From positions 1-35,564 of IMG/VR virus record IMGVR_UViG_3300012986_000002: a stretch of DNA of 35,564 nucleotides, one strand, 5' to 3'. The stretch is from a virus. Shown in pieces: positions 8,523 through 30,873 of this stretch; the first letter of the stretch is position 1; each line of letters begins with the position of its first letter. Made by a program: the position numbers and the translations under genes. A model generated the notes under the pieces. That model was not told where the DNA came from. It did no database searches and worked only from the letters and a program-made list of their open reading frames with translations.

Positions 8523-8542
8523 TCAAAATCTCAAAGCGAAGC
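8523..8542 (-). promoter_or_regulatory. GCTTCGC-N10-TGA leader motif before rnhA
   Basis: On the minus strand GCTTCGC (8536-8542) is followed after ten bases by TGA; GCTTCGC ends 32 bases before the ATG. The flanking bases A and T extend the mini-stem. Confidence 0.65.
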
Positions 8543-8594
8543 TACCTGAAACCTGAATCATTGCTATAATATAACAAATAATTGAGAGATTCTT

Positions 8595-9071
8595 ATGTCA
8601 GGAAACACAGATTTATTGAGAGAATGTGCGCGTTTATCGGTAGCTAATTCTGAATTAGCGATCGACAATTCGGAACTGTTAATAGAAAATTTGAGGGTAA
8701 AAGCAGAAAATCTGAGACTAACTCAGCGGTTGGATCAAATGAACAATTTAGCCAGAGCAATGTATAACGATTTTAAGCTCGATCGACCTAATGGAAATTT
8801 GACCGAAAATAATAGAGAATCCTTAGACCTGAAGGGTGGCGGAACTATCTATTTAGTTCAGTATCTCGATCGAAATGGAAAATCGTACATATCTACAGAA
8901 GGTGTAACACCAGAAGGCGATATAGCTCCTAAGCTTTATTATTTCGGCTATGCGGTGTTTTTCATGGTAGAAGAACTGGTGCGACAAGGATTTAGTGGTC
9001 TGCCTGAGAGATTTTTAAAGTTGTTCGTAGCTTGCGGGGCGCGTAGCGCCATCGAAACCCAAAGTTTATGA
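8595..9071 (+). CDS. Unknown protein with coiled-coil N-terminus, C-terminus altered by a repeat
   Basis: The first 50 residues form a Leu/Asn/Glu heptad-like coiled coil; the rest is a small globular region (T-I-Y-L-V-Q-Y-L-D) of no family I know. A 23-bp repeat at 9028-9050 replaces the last 22 residues with V-A-C-G-A-R-S-A-I-E-T-Q-S-L. Removing it restores CGATCG and extends the frame to TAA 9113-9115, giving 165 residues ending V-M-A-Y-L. A TATAAT at 8565-8570 is a plausible -10 box. The altered protein may still fold because only the tail changes. Confidence 0.6.
   Translation: MSGNTDLLRECARLSVANSELAIDNSELLIENLRVKAENLRLTQRLDQMNNLARAMYNDFKLDRPNGNLTENNRESLDLKGGGTIYLVQYLDRNGKSYISTEGVTPEGDIAPKLYYFGYAVFFMVEELVRQGFSGLPERFLKLFVACGARSAIETQSL
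9028..9050 (+). repeat. Very small palindromic repeat, 23 bp
   Basis: Identical to the copy at 2344. Flanked by CG (9026-9027) and ATCG (9051-9054). Its removal extends the host gene in frame to 9115. Confidence 0.9.
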
Positions 9072-9224
9072 ACTATGTAGTCAAAGAATTTGAACGGGTG
9101 ATGGCATATTTATAAGCCCAGCGAAGTTCAGAATCCGTCAAAGAACAGTAAATTATCTCCAAAAACAATTTGCGTTTGTTTCTGTTTTTGATTTTCATTC
9201 TCATGTTCTACAAACTACTTACTT

Positions 9225-9755
9225 ATGAACGATCGTACCATTAAACAACGGTTTGAAAAACACATTATCCGTAAAGATGATTGCTGGATAACAGATTTGC
9301 ATTGTAATCACAGAGGTTATCCACGAATTAAAGTGAATAATAGAGGAATAAATGCTTCTCGTGTAAGTTTTCAGCTATACAACGGAGAAATCCCTGAAGG
9401 AATGCTTGTATGTCATCGTTGCGATAATCCAGGGTGTGTAAATCCTTAACATTTATTCCTCGGCACTCATAAGGACAATATGAGAGATATGATAGAAAAA
9501 GGACGATCACTTAAAGGCTCTAAAACCTCTCAATCTAAACTGACTGAAAAAGAAGTGTTTCAAATCAAAGCCTTGTTATCTGAAACTAATTTAACCCCTA
9601 AAAGAATTGCTAGTTTATTTGATATTTGCACACGAACTATCTCGTATATTCAACATGACGGTATCTGGAAACACGTTAATTATGTTGCTAACCGCAAAAA
9701 TAACAGCAAAAGTAAGAAATCTGTAGGATGGAAACAGTTAAGTTTATTTGACTGA
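9225..9755 (+). pseudogene. HNH endonuclease (HNH_3 type) with an in-frame TAA
   Basis: The gene is colinear with the intact HNH gene at 11439. It has the pattern C-W-I-T-D, R-V-S-F-Q-L-Y-N, L-V-C-H-R-C-D-N-P-G-C-V-N-P, then TAA at 9447-9449 where the paralogue has Glu (N-P-E-H-L-F-L-G-T). The same frame continues through H-L-F-L-G-T-H-K-D-N and a C-terminal helix-turn-helix-like region to 9755. A single G-to-T change (GAA to TAA) would explain it. The nuclease motif is cut before the second histidine, so the truncated product should be inactive unless the stop is read through. Confidence 0.82.
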
Positions 9756-9759
9756 TTTG

Positions 9760-10047
9760 CTAAAGCAGTCCCATAATTTGCAAATGTCGATAAACCACAA
9801 TTTCCTCAATCCCAACTTGACGATCGATTGCCTTCATAGATTGCCCCTCAGCTCTGAGCAATCGAATACGTTCTCTCAGAGCTTCAATTTGATCGGTCGA
9901 TCGAGAAGATGCGACTTGCTTAGGTTGTAAGTTCCATGCCCTGATACTGCGCTGTACCTTAGCTGCTGTCGTGTCGGTGTGTTGAGCTATCTGAGAATAA
10001 GATAGCCCTTGACGGTACAAACGGATTTGTTCTTCTATATTGCTCAT
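9760..10047 (-). CDS. Small protein with two helix-turn-helix-like units
   Basis: This 95-residue protein has two repeats of a DNA-binding-like pattern: L-Y-R-Q-G-L-S-Y-S-Q-I-A and L-L-R-A-E-G-Q-S-M-K-A-I, each followed by a recognition-helix-like segment. It may be a small regulator or the DNA-binding part of a recombinase. It sits between the broken HNH gene and the first methyltransferase fragment, its 3' end 5 bases from the HNH stop. No clear Shine-Dalgarno sequence or leader motif is seen. Confidence 0.6.
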   Translation of the reverse strand: MSNIEEQIRLYRQGLSYSQIAQHTDTTAAKVQRSIRAWNLQPKQVASSRSTDQIEALRERIRLLRAEGQSMKAIDRQVGIEEIVVYRHLQIMGLL

Positions 10048-10063
10048 CTCTTTGACAGAATTA

Positions 10064-10345
10064 TTAATATTGAAGTAGAGAAGCTAGAAATTGGAGACGC
10101 ATCAATGGAACAGTTGCCTGGGGAACACAAATTGATAAGCCTGTTAGATTGATTGCTTCTGCCCTGCCGGGAGTTCTGCGTTCTACTCCTGGGTTGGCTG
10201 GCGGGGAATTGAATCGCCACCACCGCTCATAATGCAATCGAGCCAGGTACTCGGGAACGCCATCAACCACAGACATAGCTCCGGGTTTAGTTTCTGGGTA
10301 GTGGGTAAACGACCTTGCAATTTCAATCTGACTTCTAATGTAAAA
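10064..10345 (-). pseudogene. C5-DNA methyltransferase 3' fragment A
   Basis: Encodes the last ~90 residues of a Dcm-type methyltransferase: I-E-I-A-R-S-F, Y-L-A-R-L-H-Y-E-R-W-W-R, R-R-T-P-G-R-A-E-A, and a motif-X-like end A-T-V-P-L-M-R-L-Q-F-L-A-S-L-L. It matches the C-terminus of the full gene at 11922-12785 but lacks motifs I-VIII, so it cannot methylate. An ATG at 10396 opens this frame but lies before a terminator hairpin and I do not regard it as a real start. Confidence 0.75.
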
Positions 10346-10353
10346 GCTGGTAT

Positions 10354-10385
10354 AAAAAGTAGTAAGAATTAACCTACTACTTTTT
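10354..10385 (-). terminator. Terminator after HNH gene 2
   Basis: Perfect 11-bp arms AAAAAGTAGTA / TACTACTTTTT with a 10-base loop; on the minus strand it ends in a T run just past the stop of the HNH gene at 10397. Confidence 0.75.
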
Positions 10386-10396: not shown

Positions 10397-11011
10397 TTAA
10401 TCACAATATTCCCAACGTTTACCGCCCGATCGCCAGCCCTTACGAATTGCTACACTAACAGAGTGATATTCTAATCCCATACTTCTAGCAGCTTCAGAAG
10501 CACTTTGAAATTCTTCTCCTGTGTCTAAGCATCTTACCTTTTTCTGAGTTTTTGAATTTCGATCGTCTTTATGTAACTGCCAATGTTCCTCATTAGTCAT
10601 TACCTCCAAGTTTTCTAAGCTGTTATCGTTTCGATTACGGTTTTTGTGATGGACTATTTCAGTTTTAGGATCGCTTACACCATAATAGGCAAGATAACGA
10701 CCTAGATATTTTTCCATAATCAACGTATGTTGAGCAACGTAATCTTTGTATTGACTTACGTTTTCTATGGTGCGAGGATGCCCCGGACAATACTCGTAAA
10801 TGTATCCACGATGGCTCTTGATAACTTGCGATGGCTTTTGATTATTGAACTTTTGTTCTCTTAAATTGACACCTGCCTTTTGAAGAATTCCGGGGATACT
10901 TTTTCTTGGACAGCCTAAGATTTTTTCAATGCTTGAGTAACTGTGTCCTCCTAAGTATAGTTCAATAATCTTTGAAATATCTAAATTCAATCCTTTTGCT
11001 TTTCTTCCCAT
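10397..11011 (-). CDS. HNH homing-type endonuclease with NUMOD-like C-terminus
   Basis: The 204-residue protein has an N-terminal helix-turn-helix-like part (residues ~10-50), a central HNH core (I-V-H-H-K-N-R-N-R-N-D-N, then N-L-E-V-M-T-N-E-E-H) and a C-terminal NUMOD1-like DNA-binding unit (V-R-C-L-D-T-G-E-E-F-Q-S-A-S-E-A-A). This is the layout of free-standing homing endonucleases, which cut DNA lacking them and spread by repair. It sits between two fragments of the same methyltransferase gene. The leader motif ends 29 bases before its ATG and directly follows the stop of fragment B. A different HNH subtype from the genes at 9225 and 11439. Confidence 0.85.
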   Translation of the reverse strand: MGRKAKGLNLDISKIIELYLGGHSYSSIEKILGCPRKSIPGILQKAGVNLREQKFNNQKPSQVIKSHRGYIYEYCPGHPRTIENVSQYKDYVAQHTLIMEKYLGRYLAYYGVSDPKTEIVHHKNRNRNDNSLENLEVMTNEEHWQLHKDDRNSKTQKKVRCLDTGEEFQSASEAARSMGLEYHSVSVAIRKGWRSGGKRWEYCD

Positions 11012-11027: not shown

Positions 11028-11047
11028 GTGAAATCTTAGAGCGAAGC
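11028..11047 (-). promoter_or_regulatory. GCTTCGC leader motif before HNH gene 2
   Basis: GCTTCGC at 11041-11047 on the minus strand, ending 29 bases before the ATG at 11011. The downstream TGA position reads CAC here, so only the hairpin part is conserved. Confidence 0.5.
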
Positions 11048-11048
11048 A

Positions 11049-11395
11049 TTACATTATTTCATTTGACAACAAAGAAGCTAGAAATTGTAAACGCATCAAA
11101 GGAACAGTAGCTTGAGGAACACAGATTGATAAACCAGCTAGAGTTATTGCTTCAGCACGTCCGCGTGTGTTTCGTGGCAGTCCAACGTTGGCGGGTGGTG
11201 GATTCATTCTCCACCAGTTTTCATAATGCAATCCAGCCAAGTAAGGGGGAATCCGAGCATCCACAGGCAAACTTCTGGATGTAACTTCTGGGTAGCTGGT
11301 AAACGACCTTGCGATTTCAATATTTGCTCTAACCGATGCTGCCCAGCCCTGCCACCCTTTCCGTTGCTGGATGCTAAGGTGGTTGAAAAAACCAA
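11049..11395 (-). pseudogene. C5-DNA methyltransferase 3' fragment B
   Basis: Similarity to the full methyltransferase begins near I-Q-Q-R-K-G-W and continues through I-E-I-A-R-S-F-T-S-Y-P-E, Y-L-A-G-L-H-Y-E-N-W-W-R-M-N-P-P-P and A-T-V-P-L-M-R-L-Q-F-L-A-S-L-L to a stop at 11049. Motifs I-VIII, with the catalytic Cys, are missing. The upstream edge runs into the divergent leader of the HNH gene at 11439. Confidence 0.78.
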
Positions 11396-11402: not shown

Positions 11403-11422
11403 GCTTCGCTTTTAGGTTATGA
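11403..11422 (+). promoter_or_regulatory. GCTTCGC-N10-TGA leader motif before HNH gene 1
   Basis: GCTTCGC 11403-11409, TGA 11420-11422; GCTTCGC ends 29 bases before ATG 11439. Confidence 0.65.
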
Positions 11423-11438: not shown

Positions 11439-11987
11439 ATGCCTCCTCGTAAAACACCTCTTCAGCAACGAATCGAAAAGCATATTATATCTAAAAATAA
11501 CTGTTGGATAACAGATATTCTTTGTACTCATGATGGTCGTCCTAGAATGTGGGTTGACGGCAAATTGAAGTTTGTTTCCCGGTTGATTTTTGAACTTTAT
11601 AACACGAAAATTCCTGATGGATATTTTGTGTGTCACAATTGTGATAATCCAGCTTGTGTAAATCCCGAACACTTATTTCTCGGTACTTTAAAAGACAATT
11701 CAGCCGATATGGTGAAAAAAGACCGTCAGGCAAAAGGCTCTAAGCATGGATTTTCTAAACTCAACGATGAACAAGTATTGACAATCAAACAGTTGTTGAA
11801 TGAAACTAAGCTAACACAGAAAGCAATTGCTGAATTGTTTAATGTGTCAAGACAGACAATTGTATTGATTGCCCTAAACAGACAGTGGAAACACATTGTT
11901 TATCAACCAAAAACCGACCAATTAAGTTTGTTTGAAGTTGATGATTTGGTTAGACAGCAAAGAAGCGAGGAACTGGACACGCATTAA
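11439..11987 (+). CDS. HNH endonuclease (HNH_3 type)
   Basis: I place the start at ATG 11439 (M-P-P-R-K-T), 29 bases after the leader motif and matching the paralogue at 9225; upstream in-frame sequence is the antisense of fragment B. The 182-residue protein has C-W-I-T-D, F-V-C-H-N-C-D-N-P-A-C-V-N-P-E-H-L-F-L-G-T, then a helix-turn-helix-like tail (Q-K-A-I-A-E-L-F-N-V-S-R-Q-T-I). The paralogue stops right after Q-L-S-L-F-D; here the frame runs on 17 residues antisense to the methyltransferase 3' end, and the two genes overlap by 66 bp. Homing-type function is inferred from family and context. Confidence 0.85.
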   Translation: MPPRKTPLQQRIEKHIISKNNCWITDILCTHDGRPRMWVDGKLKFVSRLIFELYNTKIPDGYFVCHNCDNPACVNPEHLFLGTLKDNSADMVKKDRQAKGSKHGFSKLNDEQVLTIKQLLNETKLTQKAIAELFNVSRQTIVLIALNRQWKHIVYQPKTDQLSLFEVDDLVRQQRSEELDTH

Positions 11988-12785
11988 TGGGACGGTAGCC
12001 TGCAAAGGGACGATCGACAGACCAGCTAGAGTTACTGCTTCTCGTCTTCCAGGCGTTCTACGCTTTAATCCGGGACTGACTGGTGGCGGATTCATTCTCC
12101 ACCAGTGGTCATAATGCAATCCAGCCAGGTAGGAGGGATTGCCATCATCCACAGACAAAGAGCTGGGTTCAGCTTCTGGGTAGCTGATAAACGATTTTGC
12201 GATCGTAATGTACTTTCCAATGTTGTCAGACCAGCAGGTCCACCCTTGCCGTTGCTGGAGCTGTAAGTCGTTACGGTAGGCAACGATAAACACTCTTTGC
12301 CTCTCATGTGGCGCACCGCACTCCGACGCGCTGATAACTTCAACTTCTGTTTCAAATCCTGCCATTTGCAAGGCTCCCAAGATTGTTCGCAAGCCTCTAT
12401 AAATGATGCCTTTTGGGTTTTCAATAATGACAAAATCTGGTTGGGCTTCAAGAATAACTCTGTACATTTCCCACCACAATCCTGATTGAGCGCCTGCCAA
12501 TCCTTCTTTCTTTCCTGCGTTTGATGTGTTTGTGCAAGGAAAACCGCCAATGACGATTGTAGGAAAGCCGAATTCTCTGAATTTGGGTGGATGATATGTG
12601 TTGATATCAGCCCAGATGGGGATATTAGGGAAGTGTGACTGGAGAACTTTTTGATCATAAGGATTTATTTCGACAAATTGAAATGTTTGATATCGTAGTT
12701 TGCTAGATGGTACGTCATTGCTAAAAACTAATTGTGCTGCTAATTCAAATCCTCCAATTCCTGAAAATAAACTAATTGCTTGCAT
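11922..12785 (-). CDS. DNA (cytosine-5) methyltransferase
   Basis: The 287-residue enzyme shows the C5-methyltransferase motifs: I (L-F-S-G-I-G-G-F), IV with catalytic Cys84 (G-G-F-P-C-T-N), VI (I-E-N-P-K-G), VIII (P-H-E-R-Q-R-V-F) and a motif-X-like end (L-Q-A-T-V-P-L-M-R). It transfers methyl from S-adenosylmethionine to cytosine in a specific site; the target is unknown. The recognition domain between VIII and X is short. No restriction partner is next to it, so self-protection is likely. The final residues (I-N-F-K-Q-T) overlap the HNH gene, suggesting the original stop was lost at a junction near 11936. Starts at ATG 12785, divergent from 12867. Confidence 0.88.
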   Translation of the reverse strand: MQAISLFSGIGGFELAAQLVFSNDVPSSKLRYQTFQFVEINPYDQKVLQSHFPNIPIWADINTYHPPKFREFGFPTIVIGGFPCTNTSNAGKKEGLAGAQSGLWWEMYRVILEAQPDFVIIENPKGIIYRGLRTILGALQMAGFETEVEVISASECGAPHERQRVFIVAYRNDLQLQQRQGWTCWSDNIGKYITIAKSFISYPEAEPSSLSVDDGNPSYLAGLHYDHWWRMNPPPVSPGLKRRTPGRREAVTLAGLSIVPLQATVPLMRVQFLASLLSNQIINFKQT

Positions 12786-12866
12786 AGAATCAATTTATTT
12801 ATATAACTTTATTTTAATTGTATCATTTTCACTTCGTGTTTGGGAAGCAGTTTTGAACCAACAACT

Positions 12867-13247
12867 ATGACTAAAATTGTAATGATTTCTGGCAGTCGTT
12901 CAATCAAAGATATCAGTGCTGGATTGCCATCAATCGATCGAATAATGGAGCTAAAGTTTGCGATAATCGTTGGTGATGCGGTAGGCGTAGATAAGCTAGT
13001 TCAAGAATATTTTCGTCGATCGAATTACCTCAACGTTACAGTTTACTTTCCATTGTGGGGCGGAGGTGGGAAGCCGAGAAACACGACGGGGTATGAAACG
13101 GTTGGAGTTGCAGGAAACTATATTGATCGAGATATAGCAATGTGTTCGGTTTGCAATTACGGTTTGGCTCTCTGGGACGGGAGAAGTCATGGAACCAGGG
13201 ATAATATCGATCGAACTGGAAAGAAAACCAAAATAATCAGAATTTGA
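12867..13247 (+). CDS. SLOG/YspA-like Rossmann protein
   Basis: ATG 12867 gives 126 residues. Features of the SLOG (YspA/DprA-like) fold: I-S-G-S-R near the start, I-I-V-G-D-A-V-G-V-D-K-L in the middle, and Y-G-L-A-L-W-D-G-R-S-H-G-T-R-D-N near the end. Members of this superfamily bind nucleotides or nucleotide-derived ligands; the ligand here is unknown. A degenerate leader hairpin, CAC-TTC-GTG (about 12830-12838), lies about 30 bases upstream. Two more SLOG-like genes are at 23443 and 31261. Confidence 0.7.
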   Translation: MTKIVMISGSRSIKDISAGLPSIDRIMELKFAIIVGDAVGVDKLVQEYFRRSNYLNVTVYFPLWGGGGKPRNTTGYETVGVAGNYIDRDIAMCSVCNYGLALWDGRSHGTRDNIDRTGKKTKIIRI

Positions 13248-13274
13248 GGTAGCTGAGGTCTGTGGGTGAGGGTC

Positions 13275-13294
13275 GCTTCGCGATAAGGGAGTGA
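13275..13294 (+). promoter_or_regulatory. GCTTCGC-N10-TGA leader motif
   Basis: GCTTCGC 13275-13281 with flanking C and G pairing, TGA 13292-13294; 35 bases from GCTTCGC to ATG 13317. Confidence 0.65.
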
Positions 13295-13316
13295 CCTCTC
13301 AGCAGTAATTACTACC

Positions 13317-13724
13317 ATGACTATTACCGTAGAAAAGTTTGATTTCGACAAATTCACGACTGATAAAGTTAAGTTTGCGATCGATATTGACCGCGAAGTT
13401 TTCAATGTGTCTGAAGGCACGAACAGTCAGTATATTGACGATCAATTAGGTAACTCTCCGCTTTGGCGAGGCAAGTTTTCTGTTGAGGAGTATCGGCAAC
13501 TGCTGTGGCAACAAATCCAGCAGCATTTACCGAGATATTTTCGCAAAGGACTAAAAGGTTTCTATGAGCCTTACTTAGTTTCTGATTCCAATCAGTTTAG
13601 AGCGATTATGGAATTAGCAGAAGTTTATCGAGATAAAGGTCGGCTAAAGCTGCTTTATATTTCCGATCGCTCCCATGCCGAACTTATCGCCAGATGCGTT
13701 GATTTTTTGGCAAATCAGATATAG
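13317..13724 (+). CDS. Small hypothetical protein, weakly DUF4326-like
   Basis: A 135-residue protein with an L-G-N-S-P-L-W-R stretch, a helical middle and a conserved-looking end, G-R-L-K-L-L-Y-I-S-D-R-S-H-A-E-L-I. The order resembles DUF4326, but the usual Cys residues are absent and I treat this as weak. Its end resembles L-W-Y-I-S-R-Y-D-L-P-T-A of the next gene, so the two may be paralogues. Preceded by the leader motif and followed by a strong hairpin, so it is a single-gene unit. Confidence 0.55.
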   Translation: MTITVEKFDFDKFTTDKVKFAIDIDREVFNVSEGTNSQYIDDQLGNSPLWRGKFSVEEYRQLLWQQIQQHLPRYFRKGLKGFYEPYLVSDSNQFRAIMELAEVYRDKGRLKLLYISDRSHAELIARCVDFLANQI

Positions 13725-13725
13725 C

Positions 13726-13772
13726 AATTACGTTAACCTAGAAACTCAGTATTTCTAGATTAACGTAATTTT
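13726..13772 (+). terminator. Long terminator hairpin
   Basis: Nineteen-base arms, AATTACGTTAA..CTAGAAA and its complement with one mismatch, around a CTCAGTA loop, directly followed by TT. It starts 2 bases after the stop of the 13317 gene. Confidence 0.75.
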
Positions 13773-13834
13773 CGTAAATACTTTGCAATAAGGAAACGAC
13801 CAAGAAAACACTACTTTTAATATTAAGGAGAATT

Positions 13835-14251
13835 ATGTCAGAAATTCACATCAATCCAATGAGCCTTTTTCCTTACGATGTCAACAGACGAGAAGGAACC
13901 TATTTCGATCGAAACGGTAAGCCAGTTGATAAAGACCTTCTCAAAGGTCATTATGCTGTTGCTTATGAAGGTAGGGATATCCGTTTGTCAACTTGGGCAT
14001 GGAAACAGCGTAAGGAATTGACCAATTTAGCAACTTACTTTGATGGTAATGCAGTCGAAGAAAAACGCTTAATTATCTGGGAGCAATTTCAAACTCTCAC
14101 AGTGAACAGACATTTAATTAATTTCTGCGAGCAATTCAGAGAACAACCGATGTATCTCTGGTATATCAGCCGTTACGACTTACCGACAGCTCAGTTCATT
14201 AAACGTTTTTTGGAATGGTATTGGGCAGAATTTCCAATAATCCACCAGTAG
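13835..14251 (+). CDS. Hypothetical protein
   Basis: A 138-residue protein with a good Shine-Dalgarno sequence (AAGGAG 13825-13830) 4 bases before the ATG. Aromatic-rich, with a C-terminal L-W-Y-I-S-R-Y-D-L-P-T-A-Q-F segment resembling the end of the preceding protein. No known family recognised. It has its own hairpin after the stop. A degenerate leader-like stretch (ACTTTGC) lies about 55 bases upstream. Confidence 0.6.
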   Translation: MSEIHINPMSLFPYDVNRREGTYFDRNGKPVDKDLLKGHYAVAYEGRDIRLSTWAWKQRKELTNLATYFDGNAVEEKRLIIWEQFQTLTVNRHLINFCEQFREQPMYLWYISRYDLPTAQFIKRFLEWYWAEFPIIHQ

Positions 14252-14257
14252 AAAACT

Positions 14258-14290
14258 GTTATACTCTAGCTAATTTAGTTAGAGTATAAC
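14258..14290 (+). terminator. Hairpin after the 13835 gene
   Basis: Arms GTTATACTCTA and TAGAGTATAAC, extendable by CTAA/TTAG, lie 6 bases past the stop. No T run. Confidence 0.6.
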
Positions 14291-14294
14291 GCTA

Positions 14295-15029
14295 ATGTTT
14301 GCAACACAATTTTCCGACAAATAAGCTATCAAAGTAACAGACGTAACCCCAGATTATGAAGTAAACTATAAAACTGGGTACATAGGATTTCTCAACAAGG
14401 GAGCTGACGTAACATCTCTCGGCATCGCTTACTTTACGGGTTGGGATATCATCAGCGATATCCATGTGACTCATACCTTGATTGTTGCGGGAGAGGATCA
14501 ATCTATTGAAGCAGACATGGTAAATAACACAGTCAAGGTTTGTACCCTAACCAAATACTTCAATGACCCTAACTGTCAAATCTTCTTCCGCAAACCCATA
14601 CTTTTCAACGATGCGGTAGGTTATGCGATCGCATACAAAGCCAGTTTGGAAGTCGGCAAACAATACGATTTCGGCGCAATCTTAACCCAAGGACTCTCAG
14701 GCAGTTTCCCTGGGCGGATGCTCGATCGGCTGCTGACCGGAAAGTTGGAGGAACTGTTAGGCAACCTGCTTAATCATCCCGATAAATGGATTTGTAGCGA
14801 ACTTGTTGCCTACGCTTTGGATGAGCAGTTATTCTACCGAGATAAAGGCATCCTCAAACGTCCTAACTCTACCATCAGTCCTCAAGAGCTTTTCCAGGAT
14901 ACCGAAATCTTTGCACCCTGGAAAAAATCTGAACCCTCAGAAACAAAAACAGTAACAGAAACAAAAACAGTGACCGTAACAGAAACGGTAACAAAAACAG
15001 ATCCAGAAACAGACTTAATCTGTAAGTAA
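14295..15029 (+). pseudogene. Permuted NlpC/P60 (YiiX-like) papain-fold protein with in-frame TAA
   Basis: From ATG 14295 the frame reads nine codons, hits TAA at 14322-14324, and continues in the same frame to 15029. Sequence after the stop looks coding (G-Y-I-G-F-L-N-K-G-A-D), so this is probably one gene with a nonsense change. A GTG at 14466 could start a shorter 187-residue product. V-T-H-T-L-I-V-A-G and W-I-C-S-E-L-V-A-Y fit the His-then-Cys order of permuted NlpC/P60 hydrolases, which act on peptidoglycan peptides or lipids. The C-terminal tail (E-T-K-T-V-T repeats) is encoded by a low-complexity ACAGAAACAAAA-type repeat. Confidence 0.6.
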
Positions 15030-15055
15030 GAATAGCTGAGGTTAACCGTTCAAAC

Positions 15056-15075
15056 GCTTTGCGGTAAGGACATGA
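15056..15075 (+). promoter_or_regulatory. Leader motif variant GCTTTGC-N10-TGA
   Basis: GCTTTGC 15056-15062 flanked by C and G, TGA 15073-15075. An ATG follows 36 bases later, at 15099. Confidence 0.5.
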
Positions 15076-15167: not shown

Positions 15168-16463
15168 TAAATTATAAAGAATTGCTAAAAACACAGATTT
15201 GTTAGTAAAAGTTTTAGTAAAAGTGATAGACTATTTCAATGATAGTTTTAGAGTTTAAATTGAAGGGCAAAGCGGAGCAATATCGGAGCATCGACGAGAT
15301 GATCAGAACAGCTCAATTCGTCCGAAACAAGACTCTAAAATATTGGACAGAAAATCAAGGAATTAAGCTAGTTGACCTATACAAACAATGCGCTGTTATG
15401 GCGAAAGAATTTGAATGGGCGGGCAAGCTTAACTCGATGGCACGTCAAGCTTCCGCCGAACGTGCCATTTTTGCTATTCAACGCTTTTTTGCTAATTGCA
15501 AAGCCAAGAAACCCGGAAAAAAGGGATATCCACAGTTCAAGAAGCATACTCGATCTGTTGAGTATAAAACTTCGGGATGGGAACTTTCTGCGGACAAAAG
15601 ATGCTTGACCCTTAAAGATGGTTTTGCTGCGGGGAAGTTCAAGTTAATCGGCAGTCGAGACTTGCATTTCTATGCGCCCGGTGAAATAAAACGAATCAGA
15701 ATCGTGCGTCGTGCCGACGGCTACTACGCCCAATTCTGTATTAATGTGGAGCGGAAAGAGGAGCCTGTTCTCACTGGTAAAGCTATTGGAATAGATGTCG
15801 GGTTAAACCATTTCTATACCGATAGTGATGGTGAAACGGTCGCTAACCCTCGATATCTTCGCAAGAGCGAAAAAGCTTTGAAGAGATTGCAGAAGCGAGT
15901 TTCAAGGGAAGAAGAAAGGTTCTAGTAATCGGAAAAAAGCAGTTAATAAGCTGGGAAGGAAACACCTGAAGGTCACTAGGCAGCGTGAAGACTTCGCCAT
16001 AAAGACGGCGTTGTGCGCGGTAAAATCTAACGATTTTGTAGCCTACGAAGACCTTCAGGTGCGGAACATGGTGAAAAACCACAAGCTAGCCAAATCAATT
16101 AGCGATGCAGCTTGGTCACAATTTTCTCAATGGTTGGAGTATTTTGGGAAAGTGTACGGTAAAACCGTGAGTGCGGTCGCACCTCAACACACATCGCAAG
16201 AGTGTTCAAATTGTGGCAATCTAGTTCAGAAAACGCTGTCAACTCGAACCCATATTTGTGGTTGTGGAACGATTCTCGATCGCGATCATAACGCTGCGCT
16301 GAACATTTTGGCGAAAGGGTTGAAGCAGGCAAAGATCGATTTAAATACGGCGGGGCACGCCGAAATTCACGCTTGCGGACAGACCGATCTCTACTCGCTG
16401 ATGGTGACATCAATGAGCAAATCGACTGGCTGATCCAAGAATCCCCTCGCCTTTAGGCAGGGG
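15134..16463 (+). mobile_element. IS200/IS605-superfamily element with tnpB only (IS1341-like)
   Basis: The left-end hairpin at 15134-15160 (AAAGCC..GTCCT-TCT-AGGAC-GGCTTT) and the right-end hairpin at 16443-16463 (CCCCTcGCC-TTTA-GGCAGGGG) bracket a tnpB gene. Such end hairpins are recognised by the TnpA transposase in this superfamily, but no tnpA is present. The sequence around the right end normally also encodes the guide (omega) RNA of TnpB. Exact outer borders cannot be set without the empty site. Confidence 0.75.
15239..16433 (+). pseudogene. tnpB: TnpB RNA-guided nuclease, frameshifted
   Basis: The first part (15239-15925) contains the RuvC aspartate D186 in G-I-D-V-G-L-N and stops early at TAG 15923-15925. 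Sequence in another frame continues without a break of similarity (K-K-G-S-S-N-R-K-K, K-T-A-L-C-A-V-K) through Y-E-D-L-Q-V-R (RuvC Glu), the zinc knuckle C-S-N-C..C-G-C, and L-D-R-D-H-N-A-A (RuvC Asp) to 16433. A one-base indel in the purine run near 15906-15919 explains the shift. All three catalytic acids survive at sequence level, so decay looks recent. Combined length (~398 residues) is normal for TnpB. Confidence 0.85.
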
Positions 16464-16473
16464 AGTGTCAAAG

Positions 16474-16640: not shown

Positions 16641-16757
16641 TGCTCATGTGCAGGTACACATACAGGTAAAGGCTATGTATGTGTGAGAGTTAAAGTGGTA
16701 AATAAAGAGAGATGAAAATACTTCGTTTTGAGGAGACGATGTATTTTCGATCGTCTC

Positions 16758-17606: not shown

Positions 17607-17626
17607 GCTTCGCTATGAAGTGTTGA
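17607..17626 (+). promoter_or_regulatory. GCTTCGC-N10-TGA leader motif
   Basis: GCTTCGC 17607-17613, TGA 17624-17626; 41 bases to ATG 17655. A GAGG ribosome site also precedes the start. Confidence 0.6.
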
Positions 17627-17654: not shown

Positions 17655-18020
17655 ATGGAAACAATCAATTTCGCAGGCGTTGAAGGTAAAGTTATCGAAA
17701 CATCACCGCACGGGAGTTACGTTGTAGTAAAATTGAGCGATCGAATCACAATTGTCGGCACAAGCAATAATCAATTCAATTGGCAAGAAATGCCGGATGC
17801 TGCTTCAGGATTTGAATCTTTCATCACGTACATAGGTATACGATCGAAAACTGAGGCTACTAAATATCTAAACCTGATAGCTACAGTTGGCGGTTACACA
17901 CTCAAGAAAGAAGCTGAACCCAGAAAAGCCAAGCGGATTACAGATTTCCCATTTGAAATTAAAGTACGCGGGTTAAGTCCTGAGTTTGTTGCTGAAGTAA
18001 TTCGTTGCAGGAAAAAGTAG
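17655..18020 (+). CDS. Hypothetical protein, intact paralogue of 17126
   Basis: A 121-residue protein with a compact alpha/beta look: M-E-T-I-N-F-A-G-V-E-G-K-V, V-V-V-K-L-S-D-R-I-T, I-G-I-R-S-K-T-E-A-T, and F-E-I-K-V-R-G-L-S-P near the end. It serves as the uninterrupted reference for the paralogue cut by the repeat at 17456. Function unknown. Confidence 0.68.
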   Translation: METINFAGVEGKVIETSPHGSYVVVKLSDRITIVGTSNNQFNWQEMPDAASGFESFITYIGIRSKTEATKYLNLIATVGGYTLKKEAEPRKAKRITDFPFEIKVRGLSPEFVAEVIRCRKK

Positions 18021-22733: not shown

Positions 22734-22753
22734 GCTTCGCGTTAATGAGTTGA
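22734..22753 (+). promoter_or_regulatory. GCTTCGC-N10-TGA leader motif
   Basis: GCTTCGC 22734-22740 with C/G flanks, TGA 22751-22753; 29 bases to ATG 22770. No Shine-Dalgarno sequence is visible. Confidence 0.65.
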
Positions 22754-22769: not shown

Positions 22770-23375
22770 ATGCTGCACCTCAAAAACTATTTCTCTGTTT
22801 GTGAACAACATAATCTCGTTGAGTTGATCCGAAATGTAGTCAAAGCTAACGGCGGGATAACAATTCCCGTGATGCCATCTGGTCTGAAATTCCACTGTAG
22901 CCAAACCAGTTGCGGAATTGTTGGCTGGCTATCCGATCGAAAAGGCTATCGTTATTCATCCATCAATCCAGTAAATAATCAACCCTTCGCATCAATGCCG
23001 ACAGAGTTGGTAGATATTGCTCAACGTTTAGCCCAATTAGTTGGTGAATTTGATTATCAGCCCGAAACCGGTCTAATCAACTTTTACCCAGCCACCGGGA
23101 AAAGTAAGTTAGGTTTGCATCAAGATAACACCGAGCAGAATTTCAAACCCTGCATCATTTCAATATCTCTCGGTGATGATTGCAGTTTTGTTGTCGGCAG
23201 CAACCGCAGTCGCAAAGATCCACTCGACGGCATCCTATTACGATCGGGCGATGTCCTCATCCTCCACGGTGACAGCCGTTTAGCGTATCACGGAGTCCAA
23301 AGAATTCTACCAAAAACATCAAATTTACTCAAGAATCACGGCAGATTAAACTTGACCATTCGACAAGTTTATTAG
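22770..23375 (+). CDS. alkB: AlkB-like 2OG-Fe(II) dioxygenase
   Basis: AlkB proteins repair alkylated bases by oxidative demethylation. The 201-residue protein has N-F-Y-P, H117-Q-D119, I-S-I-S-L-G, the distal H174 (A-Y-H-G-V) and the diagnostic R192-L-N194-L-T196-I-R198. The length is usual for bacterial and phage AlkB. It has its own leader motif and no clear Shine-Dalgarno sequence. On a phage-like element it could repair single-stranded or damaged genome DNA, or counter a host base modification; the latter is speculation. Confidence 0.9.
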   Translation: MLHLKNYFSVCEQHNLVELIRNVVKANGGITIPVMPSGLKFHCSQTSCGIVGWLSDRKGYRYSSINPVNNQPFASMPTELVDIAQRLAQLVGEFDYQPETGLINFYPATGKSKLGLHQDNTEQNFKPCIISISLGDDCSFVVGSNRSRKDPLDGILLRSGDVLILHGDSRLAYHGVQRILPKTSNLLKNHGRLNLTIRQVY

Positions 23376-23403: not shown

Positions 23404-23423
23404 GCTTCGCCATGAGTTGTTGA
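23404..23423 (+). promoter_or_regulatory. GCTTCGC-N10-TGA leader motif
   Basis: GCTTCGC 23404-23410, TGA 23421-23423; 32 bases to ATG 23443. Confidence 0.65.
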
Positions 23424-23442: not shown

Positions 23443-24039
23443 ATGGCAGCAAGCAATATTCCAGCGTTACTTCAGCGTGTCGATCGAACTCTGAACCGCG
23501 AAACTCAGTACAATTTTGAGGAAGCATTTGATACGAAAGAGTACAACACAGCAATGATTACTGGGCATCGCTGGTTTGAGTATGACATTAAAGTTGACAA
23601 ACTTATTACAATGGCACTCAATCAAGGTGTGAGTAAATTCTTGTGTGGAATGGCACTCGGCACTGACCAAATTGCAGCAGAGATTTTAGTTCGGCGTAAA
23701 CTGAAATGGACAGCCGTGATTCCTTGCGCCGATCAACATAAGCTATGGAAACCACATCAGCAAAGCCATTACAAGAAATTGCTGGAACAAGCTACAGAAC
23801 AGAAATGCCTTTATCAGACCTATAGCACTGGTGTTATGCACGCTCGGAATCAGTGGATGGTCAACCGATCGGATATTTGCCTAGCAGTTTTCTCCAATGA
23901 TCCTCACGGCGTTGGTGGTGGAACTGCCTCAACTTTCAAAATGGCGCGTGCTCGTAATCTGCTTATCTATCAGTACATCCCTGCTGAATCTCGGTTCGTA
24001 ATCATTGAACCCGCTCATCAACAGTTGACACTTTTCTAG
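23443..24039 (+). CDS. YpsA-like SLOG protein (DUF1273)
   Basis: The 198-residue protein matches the DUF1273/YpsA pattern: M-I-T-G-H-R-W, F-L-C-G-M-A-L-G-T-D-Q-I-A-A-E, V-I-P-C-A-D-Q, M-H-A-R-N-Q-W-M-V and G-V-G-G-G-T-A-S-T. This SLOG branch has a Rossmann-like nucleotide-binding site; its biochemical role is not settled. The first ~35 residues are an extra helical extension. It has a leader motif and a hairpin after the stop. Confidence 0.85.
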   Translation: MAASNIPALLQRVDRTLNRETQYNFEEAFDTKEYNTAMITGHRWFEYDIKVDKLITMALNQGVSKFLCGMALGTDQIAAEILVRRKLKWTAVIPCADQHKLWKPHQQSHYKKLLEQATEQKCLYQTYSTGVMHARNQWMVNRSDICLAVFSNDPHGVGGGTASTFKMARARNLLIYQYIPAESRFVIIEPAHQQLTLF

Positions 24040-24139: not shown

Positions 24140-24421
24140 ATGAAGAAAAAAGTAGTTATGGCTCATATTCACAGTCGTATCGCCAAACTTGCCAAGGGTG
24201 CGATCGAACGTGGAGATATTACCAGTTGCGATCGCATCTCTGACGGCTCCTATTTGATCAAGCGAATTGACCAGACTGACCGACCACAGACTACCAAATA
24301 CACTACTGTCGCTGCTGCCAGTCTCCTTCATCTTCTCAATTCTTATGCTCTAGCCAATCCCCCAGAATCAGAAATATCAGAAACAATACCAGAAACAGAA
24401 ACAAATATTGCTTCGCTGTGA
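24140..24421 (+). CDS. Small hypothetical protein
   Basis: A 93-residue basic protein (M-K-K-K-V-V-M-A-H-I-H, then A-I-E-R-G-D-I-T-S-C-D-R-I) with an acidic repeat-like tail (E-I-S-E-T-I-P-E-T-E-T) encoded by CAGAAACA-type low-complexity DNA. No Shine-Dalgarno sequence or leader motif before ATG 24140. The 3' end overlaps the leader motif of the next gene. Function unknown. Confidence 0.5.
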   Translation: MKKKVVMAHIHSRIAKLAKGAIERGDITSCDRISDGSYLIKRIDQTDRPQTTKYTTVAAASLLHLLNSYALANPPESEISETIPETETNIASL

Positions 24422-24429
24422 GGGAGTGA
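24410..24429 (+). promoter_or_regulatory. GCTTCGC-N10-TGA leader motif
   Basis: GCTTCGC 24410-24416 lies inside the end of the upstream gene; TGA 24427-24429; 33 bases to ATG 24450. Confidence 0.6.
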
Positions 24430-24449: not shown

Positions 24450-24701
24450 ATGCAACAACACACTTGGTCAGAAGAAGATATCGACTATCTTTCAAAACTT
24501 GAAAAGATAGTCGATGTTGGATCGATCGTACAAACGCTTCAATTTCGCTGCATCTGCGACTGTCAGATGTACGACGATTCTGATGTCAAATTAGCGTTTG
24601 TGCGTTGGTTTAAAGCCAAAGTCGAACACATGAGCAACGATATTTACAACGTCGTTGAAGCTGAAGCTAAGGTTTTCCGAGTTAATTTGCCTTCTCTCTG
24701 A
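24450..24701 (+). CDS. Small hypothetical protein, short paralogue of 24795
   Basis: This 83-residue protein shares a core with the following gene: L-E-K-I-V-D-V-G-S-I-V-Q-T-L-Q, C-Q-M-Y-D-D-S-D-V-K-L-A-F-V-R-W-F versus L-I-N-L-D-E-I-V-D-R-L-Q, C-S-L-F-T-P-D-Q-V-K-F-A-F-L-K-W-I. All-helical, acidic, with several Cys. Function unknown. Confidence 0.62.
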   Translation: MQQHTWSEEDIDYLSKLEKIVDVGSIVQTLQFRCICDCQMYDDSDVKLAFVRWFKAKVEHMSNDIYNVVEAEAKVFRVNLPSL

Positions 24702-24724: not shown

Positions 24725-24760
24725 AGTACCCCTCGTGAAGGCTTCGCCGGGGGGTACTGA
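24725..24760 (+). promoter_or_regulatory. Leader motif nested in an AGTACCCC/GGGGTACT hairpin
   Basis: GCTTCGC 24741-24747 and TGA 24758-24760 fit the shared motif. Here they sit in a larger hairpin with arms 24725-24732 and 24751-24758, with GGC-TTC-GCC as inner stem. 47 bases from GCTTCGC to ATG 24795. Confidence 0.6.
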
Positions 24761-25911: not shown

Positions 25912-26370
25912 ATGACAACAATCACAATCAATGAATCCAGTTTTCAGGTACAGCCCTTTGTCCGCTACAAAGAAAATCGAGTCAAAGGACACTTTGCTTT
26001 ACAAGGTCAAGAATTTTATTCCCTGAATATGGCGATCGTAAAGATTAATAACCGAACCTTAACGATCGATTCGGTACTTGCTCAGTTATCAGTAAAAGAA
26101 GTATGGGGATTTGTCCTCAACGATTCTGGCGGGATACTGTCAACTTTCATGACTTTACGGTTTAATTTATCATCGATCGAACCTGGCAAAATCTATGAAT
26201 TAGACTTTCTGCCATTTAAGACTGACCTCTCTAAAAGCTTCATGCTAAATGCTTTTCCTCGCAATCCTATGAATGATACCGAAAAGTATGCTTTAGAAGC
26301 TGCTGACGATATCCTCAACTCTGCAATAGATTTTTGTCATGATGAAAGATTGAATAAAATAGTAATTTAA
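25912..26370 (+). CDS. Hypothetical protein
   Basis: A 152-residue protein with a beta-rich first half (M-T-T-I-T-I-N-E-S-S-F-Q-V) and a helical end (A-L-E-A-A-D-D-I-L-N). No Shine-Dalgarno sequence, but a leader motif 32 bases upstream. No family recognised. Confidence 0.58.
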   Translation: MTTITINESSFQVQPFVRYKENRVKGHFALQGQEFYSLNMAIVKINNRTLTIDSVLAQLSVKEVWGFVLNDSGGILSTFMTLRFNLSSIEPGKIYELDFLPFKTDLSKSFMLNAFPRNPMNDTEKYALEAADDILNSAIDFCHDERLNKIVI

Positions 26371-26444: not shown

Positions 26445-26464
26445 GCTTCGCTGGATGGGATTGA
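26445..26464 (+). promoter_or_regulatory. GCTTCGC-N10-TGA leader motif
   Basis: GCTTCGC 26445-26451, TGA 26462-26464; 90 bases to ATG 26542 because a low-complexity tract intervenes. Confidence 0.5.
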
Positions 26465-26541: not shown

Positions 26542-27303
26542 ATGGAAAACCCAATCATCATTGACGGATTCGCTTTTCGCATTCCTACCATTCCTAGTCG
26601 GTATCGCGCCAATTGTTCCAAAGAATTTGGTTGCTTTGTTACCGGAGATACCAAAGGAATGAACAGCAGCAAAGCCGAGAAAGCGGGATTGACTCGTGGT
26701 GAGTTTGTTGAGATGGCAATTTGTGCGATCGCACAGAAAACGCTGACTTTCAAGCCTCACTATGAAAATGAGCAATTCACCGAAATCTGGGGTATCCCAG
26801 TCGCCGGAGGAATGAAGACTCATTTTCATGAAAAATGTTCTGAGTTAAGTACCTTTCTCATTCATCGTCAATCACAGGACAAAATGAAAGGCTTAGTCGA
26901 ATGTTTTGGGCGAGAGGCATTCAATTCTTGGGTTGCTGAAGGTATGCAAGGCGACCACAGCGAATATGCACTCAGAAAAGCATCTGACGCTTATTTCGCG
27001 AACATTTTCCGCTTCGAGATGGTGCAAAGTGAAGGTAATTATGGCCCTTACTACTACTTAGCAATCACTACTCGTCCGATCGCAACTCCTTTTGAAGAAG
27101 CTGCCGTCAAAGCTGCTCGTATGATTTTTGAAGATGACCAAAAAGGTATTGTTCACTGTGTCGATCCTCGACTCATTGAAAACCAGTTAATGTCCTTAGG
27201 TTCTGCTTCTTCATCTTCTACGTTGGCTATTTCACCTGGCAATGGCAGTGAAGTCATTGAAGCTGAACAACAACCTGTAAAGCAGCTTAATAAAGGTAAA
27301 TAA
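26542..27303 (+). CDS. Hypothetical protein
   Basis: ATG 26542 (M-E-N-P-I-I-I-D-G-F) gives 253 residues; upstream in-frame sequence is the low-complexity tract. The protein has G-C-F-V-T-G-D-T-K-G-M, a Glu/Ala-rich helix, F-E-E-A-A-V-K-A-A-R-M-I-F, and a disordered tail. It looks like a well-folded mixed alpha/beta protein with conserved aromatic stretches (Y-G-P-Y-Y-Y-L-A-I), but I do not recognise the family. A hairpin follows at 27349. Confidence 0.62.
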   Translation: MENPIIIDGFAFRIPTIPSRYRANCSKEFGCFVTGDTKGMNSSKAEKAGLTRGEFVEMAICAIAQKTLTFKPHYENEQFTEIWGIPVAGGMKTHFHEKCSELSTFLIHRQSQDKMKGLVECFGREAFNSWVAEGMQGDHSEYALRKASDAYFANIFRFEMVQSEGNYGPYYYLAITTRPIATPFEEAAVKAARMIFEDDQKGIVHCVDPRLIENQLMSLGSASSSSTLAISPGNGSEVIEAEQQPVKQLNKGK

Positions 27304-29452: not shown

Positions 29453-29463
29453 TGCTCGGCTGT

Positions 29464-29546: not shown

Positions 29547-30029
29547 ATGGTACTGACTAAAATTGGTGGAGTAAAAATTGCTGCCAAACTTGGAATTTCT
29601 GTTGAGCAATATCAGCAAAACGTTAAGTCTGGTTTGAAACGGTTTTTCTCTTGTCAAACATGGTTAAAAATCAACTTATTTAATCAGAATACAAATGCCC
29701 GTGACGGCAAAGACAACCGTTGCAGAAGCTGTCGCAAAGCCTTCGATGCGCTACGCGCCCGCAAGCTACGACAAAGGTATGATCCAGTTCAGAACGGCAT
29801 AAGTAAACCCCCACGCTTTCCCCCTAAACCCGGCAGAGATGGTGACAAAAACCAAGCCCGGAACCGTGTAAATTACGCAGTCACACGTAACAAATTACCA
29901 CGCGACGGAGTTTATTCGGAGTTTTCTAACGATAAATACAACAAGATTGGCCCAATTTTAGCGAATATGTGGTCGAGCGAACAAGTAACAGAAGTAAGGA
30001 AAATGGATTATTACAGTCGCGGTAAATAG
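29547..30029 (+). CDS. Chimeric protein: zinc-binding N-terminus plus YYSRG-family tail, with 7-residue repeat insertion
   Basis: Residues ~30-70 hold S-C-Q-T-W and C-R-S-C, a probable CxC/CxxC metal site. The C-terminal ~35 residues (Y-N-K-I-G-P-I-L-A-N-M-W-S-S-E-Q-V-T-E, then D-Y-Y-S-R-G-K) are shared with the next genes, so this appears to be a recombined fusion. A minus-orientation 21-bp repeat (29748-29768) adds seven residues in frame after F-D; without it the sequence would read F-D-R-Q-R-Y. The overall function is unknown; the middle (R-N-R-V-N-Y-A-V-T-R-N-K-L-P) resembles part of an HNH module. Confidence 0.6.
   Translation: MVLTKIGGVKIAAKLGISVEQYQQNVKSGLKRFFSCQTWLKINLFNQNTNARDGKDNRCRSCRKAFDALRARKLRQRYDPVQNGISKPPRFPPKPGRDGDKNQARNRVNYAVTRNKLPRDGVYSEFSNDKYNKIGPILANMWSSEQVTEVRKMDYYSRGK
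29748..29768 (-). repeat. Very small palindromic repeat, 21 bp, in frame
   Basis: Reverse complement of the 21-bp copy at 17456, flanked by CGAT (29744-29747) and CG (29769-29770). It keeps the host frame open. Confidence 0.9.
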
Positions 30030-30030
30030 T

Positions 30031-30050
30031 GCTTCGCTATAAAGTGTTGC
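30031..30050 (+). promoter_or_regulatory. Leader motif GCTTCGC-N10-TGC
   Basis: GCTTCGC 30031-30037 starts 1 base after the previous stop codon. TG is at the expected place; 69 bases to ATG 30107 with a hairpin between. Confidence 0.5.
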
Positions 30051-30085
30051 CCTTTGGCTACGTGATTTTGAGCGTAGCCGAAGGG
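30050..30085 (+). promoter_or_regulatory. 13-bp leader hairpin before 30107
   Basis: CCCTTTGGCTACG and CGTAGCCGAAGGG (one G-T pair) with a 10-base loop, followed by GGAGA and the ATG. It could attenuate transcription or insulate the ribosome site. Confidence 0.55.
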
Positions 30086-30106
30086 TGTAAATTTTGGAGA
30101 GTTAAA

Positions 30107-30463
30107 ATGGCCATTCGCATTCCTCATAAAAATGAAAAGTTCCCTGAGCCTCAGCCTGAACCTTCTTCTGATTCTACAGATGACTGTGGACTAGAATCAA
30201 TGTTTACCAGGTTAGCAGCTAAACTTCGCTGGGAAAAGCAAAATATTTACCCGGAGTTAGGTGAATTATCTGCCTACTTTGACAATACGTGTTATATCTT
30301 TTTAACACTGAGGTGCGATGAATATGTCGGAGAAGGCTACGGATTTTACTCAGACAAATCTACCGATAAATACGAGAAGATTGGCGCAATTTTAGCTAAG
30401 ATGTGGCCGATCGAGGAAGTAACCGAAGCAAGAAAAATGGATTACTACAGTCGCGGTAAATAA
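30107..30463 (+). CDS. YYSRG-family small protein, copy 2
   Basis: ATG 30107 has GGAGA at 30096-30100; 118 residues. After a Pro/Glu-rich N-terminus, the core L-A-A-K-L-R-W-E-K-Q-N-I-Y-P-E-L and C-terminal Y-E-K-I-G-A-I-L-A-K-M-W-P-I-E-E-V-T and D-Y-Y-S-R-G-K are shared with 29547 and 30503, and partly with 30896. The family looks like a tandem array evolving by duplication; function unknown. Confidence 0.65.
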   Translation: MAIRIPHKNEKFPEPQPEPSSDSTDDCGLESMFTRLAAKLRWEKQNIYPELGELSAYFDNTCYIFLTLRCDEYVGEGYGFYSDKSTDKYEKIGAILAKMWPIEEVTEARKMDYYSRGK

Positions 30464-30464
30464 T

Positions 30465-30484
30465 GCTTCGCTGAAGGGTTCTGA
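30465..30484 (+). promoter_or_regulatory. GCTTCGC-N10-TGA leader motif
   Basis: GCTTCGC 30465-30471, one base after the previous stop codon; TGA 30482-30484; 31 bases to ATG 30503. Confidence 0.65.
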
Positions 30485-30502
30485 GTATTTCGGAGAACTA
30501 AT

Positions 30503-30865
30503 ATGTCACTGCCATTTCTCAAGAAAATTGACAATTACTCAGACTCAGAACCTTCCTCTTATTCTTTCATACATCCATCAGCTATCCCCTACGATCGACC
30601 AGGACTCAGATTAATTAACCGACTACGTTGGGATAGACAGAATATTGCACCTGAGCTAGACACACTGTTTCGTTATTACCGTAACACCTGTTGTCTTATA
30701 AAAAAGACTCAGGGCTTTGAAGCTGCTAAGTCTCCCGAAACTTACGATGAAATAGGTCAATTGTTAGCCAAGATGTGGTCGATGGCGCCTTCGCGCCCCG
30801 CAAGCTACGAACAATTAACAAAAGTGAAGCGACTGAATTATTACAGTCGTGGTGCTTCGCTGTAG
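30503..30865 (+). CDS. YYSRG-family small protein, copy 3, with 8-residue repeat insertion
   Basis: The 120-residue protein has L-I-N-R-L-R-W-D-R-Q-N-I-A-P-E-L and Y-D-E-I-G-Q-L-L-A-K-M-W. A minus-orientation 24-bp repeat (30784-30807) inserts eight residues (around M-A-P-S-R-P-A-S-Y) where copy 2 reads W-P-I-E-E-V-T. Removing it gives W-S-I-E-Q-L-T, matching copy 2. The end reads S-R-G-A-S-L because the GCTTCGC of the next leader motif has become coding and the stop lies inside that motif. Function unknown. Confidence 0.68.
   Translation: MSLPFLKKIDNYSDSEPSSYSFIHPSAIPYDRPGLRLINRLRWDRQNIAPELDTLFRYYRNTCCLIKKTQGFEAAKSPETYDEIGQLLAKMWSMAPSRPASYEQLTKVKRLNYYSRGASL
30784..30807 (-). repeat. Very small palindromic repeat, 24 bp, in frame
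   Basis: Minus-orientation copy; on its own strand the stem is GGCGC-GAAG-GCGCC. Flanked by CGAT (30780-30783) and CG (30808-30809). Paralogues lack it. Confidence 0.9.
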
Positions 30866-30873
30866 AGTGGCAG
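30854..30873 (+). promoter_or_regulatory. GCTTCGC leader motif overlapping the upstream gene end
   Basis: GCTTCGC 30854-30860 is read as coding (A-S-L) by the upstream gene. CAG stands in the TGA position; 35 bases to ATG 30896. Confidence 0.5.

Follow-up and report, generated by a model that had tools for sequence, protein, structure and literature searches.

The virion RNA polymerase (vRNAP) of phage N4 recognises a template-strand hairpin that is extruded under negative supercoiling, and requires a loop-closing C:G pair together with a 5' G and a 3' A as loop bases (PMC4496689). YonO, encoded by the Bacillus subtilis prophage SPbeta, is a DNA-dependent RNA polymerase that transcribes a late operon from promoters whose sequence was left open by the authors, and YonO-like proteins were also noted in cyanobacterial genomes (PMC5467207). 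For the polymerases of Thermus phages of the P23-45 type, mapping of transcription start sites yielded AT-rich or GC-rich promoter motifs, with a hairpin not being mentioned (PMC10770324). Here we analyse a 35,564-nucleotide stretch of DNA (hereafter the window; positions 1 to 35,564 of IMG/VR virus record IMGVR_UViG_3300012986_000002), in which a short repeated element, GCTTCGC-N10-TG, precedes an array of small genes and is quite probably the dedicated promoter of a plasmid-encoded RNA polymerase. The candidate reader, a 903-aa protein encoded at 3778-6489 on the minus strand, lies outside the interval 8523-30873 to which the motif had originally been assigned, and was missed there.

The original prediction, made from the letters of the window, held that a GCTTCGC-N10-TG(A) motif stands before genes on both strands, and its coordinates proved right. 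GCTTYGC occurs 31 times in the window against 10.7 expected, a number reached in none of 100 shuffles, and GCTTYGC-N10-TG occurs 18 times against 0.69 expected, with a shuffle maximum of 3. One of these 18 sites (33007) lies inside a thermonuclease gene and is probably a chance match, leaving 17 good sites, whose alignment is conserved in GCTTCGC, in the spacer (T at position 3, a purine at 4 and 5, and G at 6 and 7), in the TGA (present at 15 of the 18) and in a T-rich stretch. With the starts of open reading frames (ORFs) called mechanically, 13 of the 31 GCTTYGC sites are followed on their own strand by an ATG start at a distance of 22-50 nt, compared to 0 of 31 for the reverse-complement pattern and an average of 7.5% for permuted 7-mers, a bias in strand and start codon on which the prediction had been made to depend. 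Minus-strand copies of GCTTCGC are found at 8536-8542 and 11041-11047. The fixed TG stands at the 18 sites but is a special case of a pyrimidine-purine (YR) step, as at exactly the same place CA is found at 11041 (minus strand), 30854 and 12831, and CG at 16720. The covarying hairpin that had also been claimed is borne out across plasmids (see below) but not within the window, where the stem hardly departs from GC..GC and no consistent pairing extends past its 2 bp. The extended, covarying outer stem originally drawn was rejected, its pairing being unsupported past two pairs, and no part of the window matches Rfam at gathering score.

A literal search of plasmid relatives for GCTTCGC-N10-TG returned no match; stem and loop letters differ from plasmid to plasmid, and the element is therefore visible only once those letters may vary. 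Each relative carries its own version at the equivalent place upstream of genes: the tetraloop form GCTATCGC in Anabaena, Spirulina and others, GCTGTCGC in Anabaena azotica and Nostoc, GCTACCGC and GCTAACGC in Planktothrix and Cylindrospermum, GTTTTCAC and ACTTTCGT in Cyanobacterium aponinum, ACTATCGT and CCTATCGG in Synechocystis B12, and CCTACCGG in Phormidium, with the triloop form of the window, GCTTCGC, recurring in an Oscillatoriales metagenome-assembled genome (locus L022) and in genome G273. The common geometry is found in loci from Synechocystis, Anabaena, Nostoc, Planktothrix, Phormidium, Cyanobacterium, Geminocystis, Spirulina and Lyngbya, and all forms fit stem(2)-T-N(N)-C-stem(2), with covarying 2-bp stems (GC/GC, AC/GT, CC/GG, GT/AC). 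Under a generic pattern that asks for a T..C loop, a C-G pair closing it and one further complementary pair, most loci have their maximum at a spacing of 10 to TG (15 sites in L007, 14 in L030, 12 in L017 and 9 in L006, other spacings mostly giving 0-7), a raised count at spacing 13 in some loci being due to the common TGTTG. When pairing was not demanded, both pairs of a tetraloop stem formed at 98 of 161 sites at spacing 10, compared to 35 of 338 at spacings 8, 9, 11 and 12 (12/126, 10/62, 7/89 and 6/61). Before ATGs, T..C loop edges are present in 94 of 113 GC-NNNN-GC-N10-TG sites and in 16 of 30 GC-NNN-GC sites, all of the latter TTC, and loop lengths of 2, 5 and 6 show no excess. T..C tetraloops also occur with the alternative stems AC/GT, CC/GG and GT/AC, and none were found with CG/CG, GG/CC, CA/TG or TC/GA; the closing pair of the T..C loops is mostly C-G and in a minority T-A, and the third stem pair is often T-T.

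For the dominant hairpins of each locus that precede ATG ORFs, collected without requiring a TG (n = 218), a YR dinucleotide stands at offset 10 in 91% of the sites (TG 162, TA 16, CG 12, CA 8), against 3-14% at offsets 8, 9, 11 and 12. Even among the 56 sites lacking TG, 36 have a YR (binomial P ~7e-13 against an expectation of 3/15, which is only indicative as the sites are related). Transcription usually initiates with a pyrimidine at -1 and a purine at +1, and the YR step is the predicted transcription start. The distance from stem to ATG has its mode at 31, which implies a leader of about 20 nt. Often the element comes directly after a terminator and just before the ATG: T5 runs are found within 46 nt upstream of 41 of 147 elements, compared to 4 of 147 inside genes. 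In line with the earlier impression that few of these genes have a clear Shine-Dalgarno sequence, a strict one precedes the ATG in 41 of 147 elements of the wider set. TATAAT-like -10 boxes of the host type are at or below the shuffled level upstream of the elements, and the TATAAT consensus is absent from the 10-nt spacer, so that the -10 box at a fixed distance that marks a host sigma70-type promoter is lacking. By these sequence features, the element has the anatomy of a promoter with a fixed start site, and of the roles first suggested for it (promoter, operator or 5'-UTR element of a regulon) the cross-plasmid comparison favours the promoter.

Relatives of the ORF at 3778-6489 occur in 35 plasmid records, nine of them with a single stretch that spans 80% or more of the query, and a scan of genomes added 20 further loci; searches of viral contigs returned no relatives. 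Nineteen homologues are invariant in P-M-R-H-W-G-D, in D-x-D-G-D (D464, D466, G467 and D468; DFDGD at residues 464-468 in the window) and in A-V-D-S-x-K, in the order expected of RDR/QDE-1-like enzymes (NP..H.GD, D.DGD, AVD..K), and one of 19 members matches the Pfam RdRP family (PF05183, E 2.4e-4). An AlphaFold2 model (pLDDT, the per-residue confidence, 73.9; pTM, the global score, 0.67; without an alignment the pLDDT was 33.8 and the model useless) has its best whole-chain fold match in QDE-1 (E 6e-14, ~12% identity), with further matches to the Pol IV-associated RDR2 (E 1e-11), the crAss-like phage vRNAP 6vr4 (E 6e-8) and the phage gp62/gp64 and gp96 RNA polymerases; the VIA-align Z scores are 16.4 for 8f72, 16.1 for maize RDR2 and 15.8 for 8f5m. 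A single-chain two-barrel (double-psi beta-barrel) RNA polymerase fold is well supported by this model, and the predicted RNA polymerase looks like a distant cousin of the fungal and plant RNA-silencing polymerases. QDE-1 and the RDRs are eukaryotic enzymes of RNA silencing, and we know of no promoters for them. As the single-chain two-barrel polymerase of a mobile element, the predicted enzyme resembles YonO, and with gp64 and gp96 of phage P23-45 it shares the two-barrel fold, the DFDGD motif and the association with promoter motifs of their own, gp64-type polymerases being among its best folds (Z ~16). Unlike YonO, which belongs to a prophage, and unlike the P23-45 enzymes, whose element is a virion-forming phage, it is carried by a plasmid family, with about twenty candidate promoters beside its gene.

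Directly upstream of the polymerase gene lies that of a 497-aa protein (6494-7987, minus strand), which is co-conserved with the polymerase and the array at 20-43% identity, has two strongly hydrophobic segments (248-291 and 356-385) and gave no match in phages by tblastn. It is a possible co-factor of the polymerase, and might also act at the membrane or in DNA entry. Downstream of the polymerase, a gene for an HU-like DNA-binding protein (3150-3731, minus strand) is conserved in many relatives.

Element and polymerase also co-occur. Among 293 genomes from one order, 29 of which have the polymerase, we recorded clusters of the tetraloop pattern GCTNYCGC-N10-TGNNGTTT, defined as contigs with at least two matches within ~60 kb and counted by hand among the matches listed. 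Every clustered contig among those matches (G001:C12, G290:C2, G290:C1, G244:C66, G129:C2, G004:C310, G065:C88, G073:C2, G091:C39, G157:C1, G277:C6, G006:C222, G159:C98, G186:C52 and G222:C390) has a polymerase match, that on G290:C1 being a fragment. Clusters of the triloop pattern are confined to G002:C103 and G273:C42, both polymerase contigs; in G079, one sequence recurs in five identical copies spread over four contigs and looks like a dispersed repeat. In viral contigs the element pattern occurs only singly, one match per stretch, as by chance, and is therefore no general trait of phages. In the polymerase tree, the window pairs with G273 (100/100), both being triloop users, with L022 near in a placement that is not settled, and the three users of a TGTC loop form a clade (100/100); in a smaller tree, the window and L022 are sisters (91/95). 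At one locus (L061, G249:C2:265000-284900), the polymerase ORF (12368-15034) is full length with DSNGD for DxDGD and MRHWGN, and partner, array and elements are absent; it is apparently a dead copy.

The exact N10-YR spacing, the position between terminators and ATGs, the lack of a host -10 box and the co-occurrence with the polymerase favour the promoter reading. Such a promoter would consist of a mini-hairpin sequence with a 2-bp stem and a T-N-C or T-N-N-C loop on the coding strand, and of a YR initiator exactly 10 nt past the stem, at which transcription would start. The first transcribed bases would be T-rich, and the ATG would come ~20 nt past the start. The 903-aa polymerase, encoded in the divergent operon of the same plasmid and possibly acting with the 497-aa partner, would read the element and transcribe the array of small accessory genes (SLOG, AlkB-like, HNH, RNase H and many unknown), most of them as units of their own and independently of host sigma factors. 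The elements at 24410, 30031, 30465 and 30854 touch or overlap the end of the preceding gene, which leaves no room there for a separate host promoter.

How the polymerase would recognise the element is suggested by the other strand. A T..C loop on the coding strand places G..A edges on the template strand, which reads GC-GNA-GC or GC-GNNA-GC and, in the window, exactly GCGAAGC. Hirao and colleagues described DNA mini-hairpins of extraordinary stability, in which two or more G-C pairs close a GNA or GNNA loop and of which GCGAAGC melts at 78 C (PMC4686876), and the two loop lengths of the element, 3 and 4, are both those of this description. The template strand may thus be recognised as a folded mini-hairpin. 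At the sequence level this is like the N4 vRNAP promoters in the template-strand hairpin, the 5'G..A3' loop edges, the closing C:G pair and the location upstream of a fixed start; in contrast to N4, where a 5-7 bp stem carries a triloop centred at -11, the stem here has 2 bp and the loop 3 or 4 nucleotides, with its centre at about -15 from the predicted start. The N4 enzyme is moreover a T7-like virion polymerase, unrelated in fold to the two-barrel polymerase associated here. That a QDE-1-like polymerase recognises a GNA/GNNA mini-hairpin of the template strand, as a complete private system of the plasmid and in convergence with the hairpin promoters of N4, is a tentative proposal, to which we give somewhat less than even chances.

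Several observations weigh against the proposal that the element is a promoter read by the plasmid polymerase. The stem has only 2 bp, for which generic DNA parameters give -0.8 kcal/mol with a tetraloop and 0 with a triloop, and still less stability is expected of the GT/AC and AC/GT stems found in some plasmids; generic energies, however, miss the published stability of GNA mini-hairpins, and therefore neither support nor exclude the hairpin. The plasmids are related, so that the site counts are not independent and are inflated. A relative of the G249 locus, L027, has an intact DxDGD and the partner and lacks both array and elements, and polymerase loci without detectable elements also include L031, where the array is present, and the distant homologues L013 and L014. 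Finally, the recogniser of the element could be the co-conserved 497-aa protein or another plasmid factor. The weak, in some plasmids A-T-containing, stem would fit a variant of the same proposal in which the plasmid polymerase reads its promoter as ordinary duplex DNA, like T7-type or jumbo-phage promoters, without extrusion. We consider this rather unlikely, as the stem pairs covary and both loop lengths keep the T..C edges that correspond to the GNA/GNNA requirement, and pairing would be needless unless the reader were dimeric.

The remaining alternatives dispense with the plasmid polymerase as the reader. An activator or sigma-like factor of the plasmid, for which the 497-aa protein, co-conserved with polymerase and array, would be a candidate, might bind the element and recruit the host RNA polymerase; this is improbable given that no host -10 is conserved upstream and that a dedicated polymerase adjoins the array and co-occurs with every cluster among the matches listed. 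The nearness of the element to the ATG and the many genes without a strong Shine-Dalgarno sequence could also point to an RNA hairpin in the 5' UTR through which mRNAs transcribed from other promoters are controlled in their translation or stability. The YR step downstream of the hairpin, the ~20-nt leader, the terminators and T5 runs immediately upstream and the lack of an excess of host -10 boxes lead us to prefer a promoter, and a 2-bp RNA stem is worth only 0 to -0.7 kcal/mol and has no Rfam match, making control at the RNA level very improbable. Cyanobacterial intergenic DNA is rich in short inverted repeats, and the original prediction had named mobile mini-palindromes as its alternative. 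Such dispersed repeats (REP, STRR or HIP1-like), lying before genes by chance, we regard as next to negligible and reject, because among the matches listed clusters are found only on polymerase contigs, spacing and orientation to strand and start codon are fixed, and the letters vary with the lineage at constant geometry.

Hardly any promoter sequences are known for single-chain two-barrel RNA polymerases, and the apparent polymerase-promoter pair comes with dozens of natural variants, a predicted start and a simple geometry that make its specificity directly testable. To our knowledge, no other bacterial plasmid family has its own RNA polymerase and regulon. If the hairpin proposal is true, the array could be switched on by entry of the DNA into a new cell, by its supercoiling or by its being single-stranded. 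The system would also provide a clean example of how hairpin promoters evolve with two polymerase folds that are unrelated, might supply orthogonal expression parts for use in cyanobacteria, and gives access to about twenty accessory gene families of unknown function.

The genes behind the elements encode RNase H, HNH, SLOG/YpsA and AlkB-like 2-oxoglutarate (2OG) oxygenase proteins and many unknown families, several of them conserved across plasmids, for which a role in anti-defence or establishment is a guess. On the minus strand, GCTTCGC-N10-TG (8524-8542) precedes the RNase H gene (8078-8503), the first gene after this element and co-directional with the polymerase operon, and the variant GCTTCGC-N10-CA (11029-11047) an HNH gene (10397-11011). 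The other elements given here are on the plus strand, beginning with that at 11403-11421 before an HNH gene starting at ~11439. In this region, three diverged copies of one stretch (10079-10338, 11073-11332 and 11961-12220; 71-75% identity), with HNH genes between the copies, encode the C-terminal part of a cytosine-methyltransferase-like protein, which resembles the outcome of homing or of gene conversion around a methylase. ACTTCGT-N10-CA (12831-12849) stands before a SLOG-like gene with its ATG at ~12867, the element at 13275-13293 before gene 13317-13724, and GCTTTGC-N10-TG (15056-15074) before an uncertain gene, as TnpB-like ORFs begin at 15239. Directly 3' of the split TnpB-like gene (15239-16433), 35 bp (16438-16472) have an identical site in the Nodularia phages kac65 and kac68, and are probably the end of a shared IS605-type element. 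ACTTCGT-N10-CG (16720-16738) precedes a gene with its ATG at ~16758.

Further elements lie at 17607-17625 (before gene 17655-18020, a conserved family), 18902-18920 (18978-19367), 19489-19507 (GCTTTGC; 19538-20053, a conserved family without a Pfam match), 20153-20171 (20207-20518, a conserved family) and 20622-20640 (20686-21195). The one at 22734-22752, with a terminator-like hairpin just upstream, precedes the AlkB-like 2OG-Fe(II) oxygenase gene (22770-23375), that at 23404-23422 the YpsA/SLOG gene (23443-24039), that at 24410-24428, overlapping the end of the previous gene, gene 24450-24701, that at 24741-24759 a gene starting at ~24795, and that at 25873-25891 gene 25912-26370. The element at 26445-26463 has a longer leader to a conserved gene starting at ~26542. 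The last three are at 30031-30049, directly 3' of the stop of gene 29547-30029, at 30465-30483, directly 3' of the preceding gene's stop and before gene 30503-30865, and, as GCTTCGC-N10-CA, at 30854-30872 before gene 30896-31147.

By its conserved genes, which match cyanobacterial plasmids, the window belongs to a cyanobacterial plasmid family, and despite its filing as a virus in IMG/VR it probably represents a phage-plasmid or part of a plasmid. In the annotated plasmid relatives, the homologue of the polymerase has an array of small genes next to it, Par, Rep and integrase genes are present, no capsid, terminase or tail genes are annotated in the regions viewed, and no structural phage genes were recognised among the window proteins searched. 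The sole link to a phage by similarity is gene 26542-27303, which has a 56% relative at the genome end of Planktothrix phage PaV-LD (94494-95117) and is also found in many of the polymerase plasmids, suggesting gene exchange between plasmids and phage. A PADLOC scan yielded weak DrmC-like PLD matches and a DUF5131 (PDC-M30B), and nothing that amounts to a convincing defence system. A GC-rich repeat, CGTAGCTTGCGGGGCGCGTAGCGCCATCG, is unrelated to the promoter element and present in four copies (1890-1922, 2338-2370, 9022-9054 and 18653-18685), and two tandem DNA-ligase-like genes occupy 1348-3078, the second with a non-ATG start after a GC-rich repeat.

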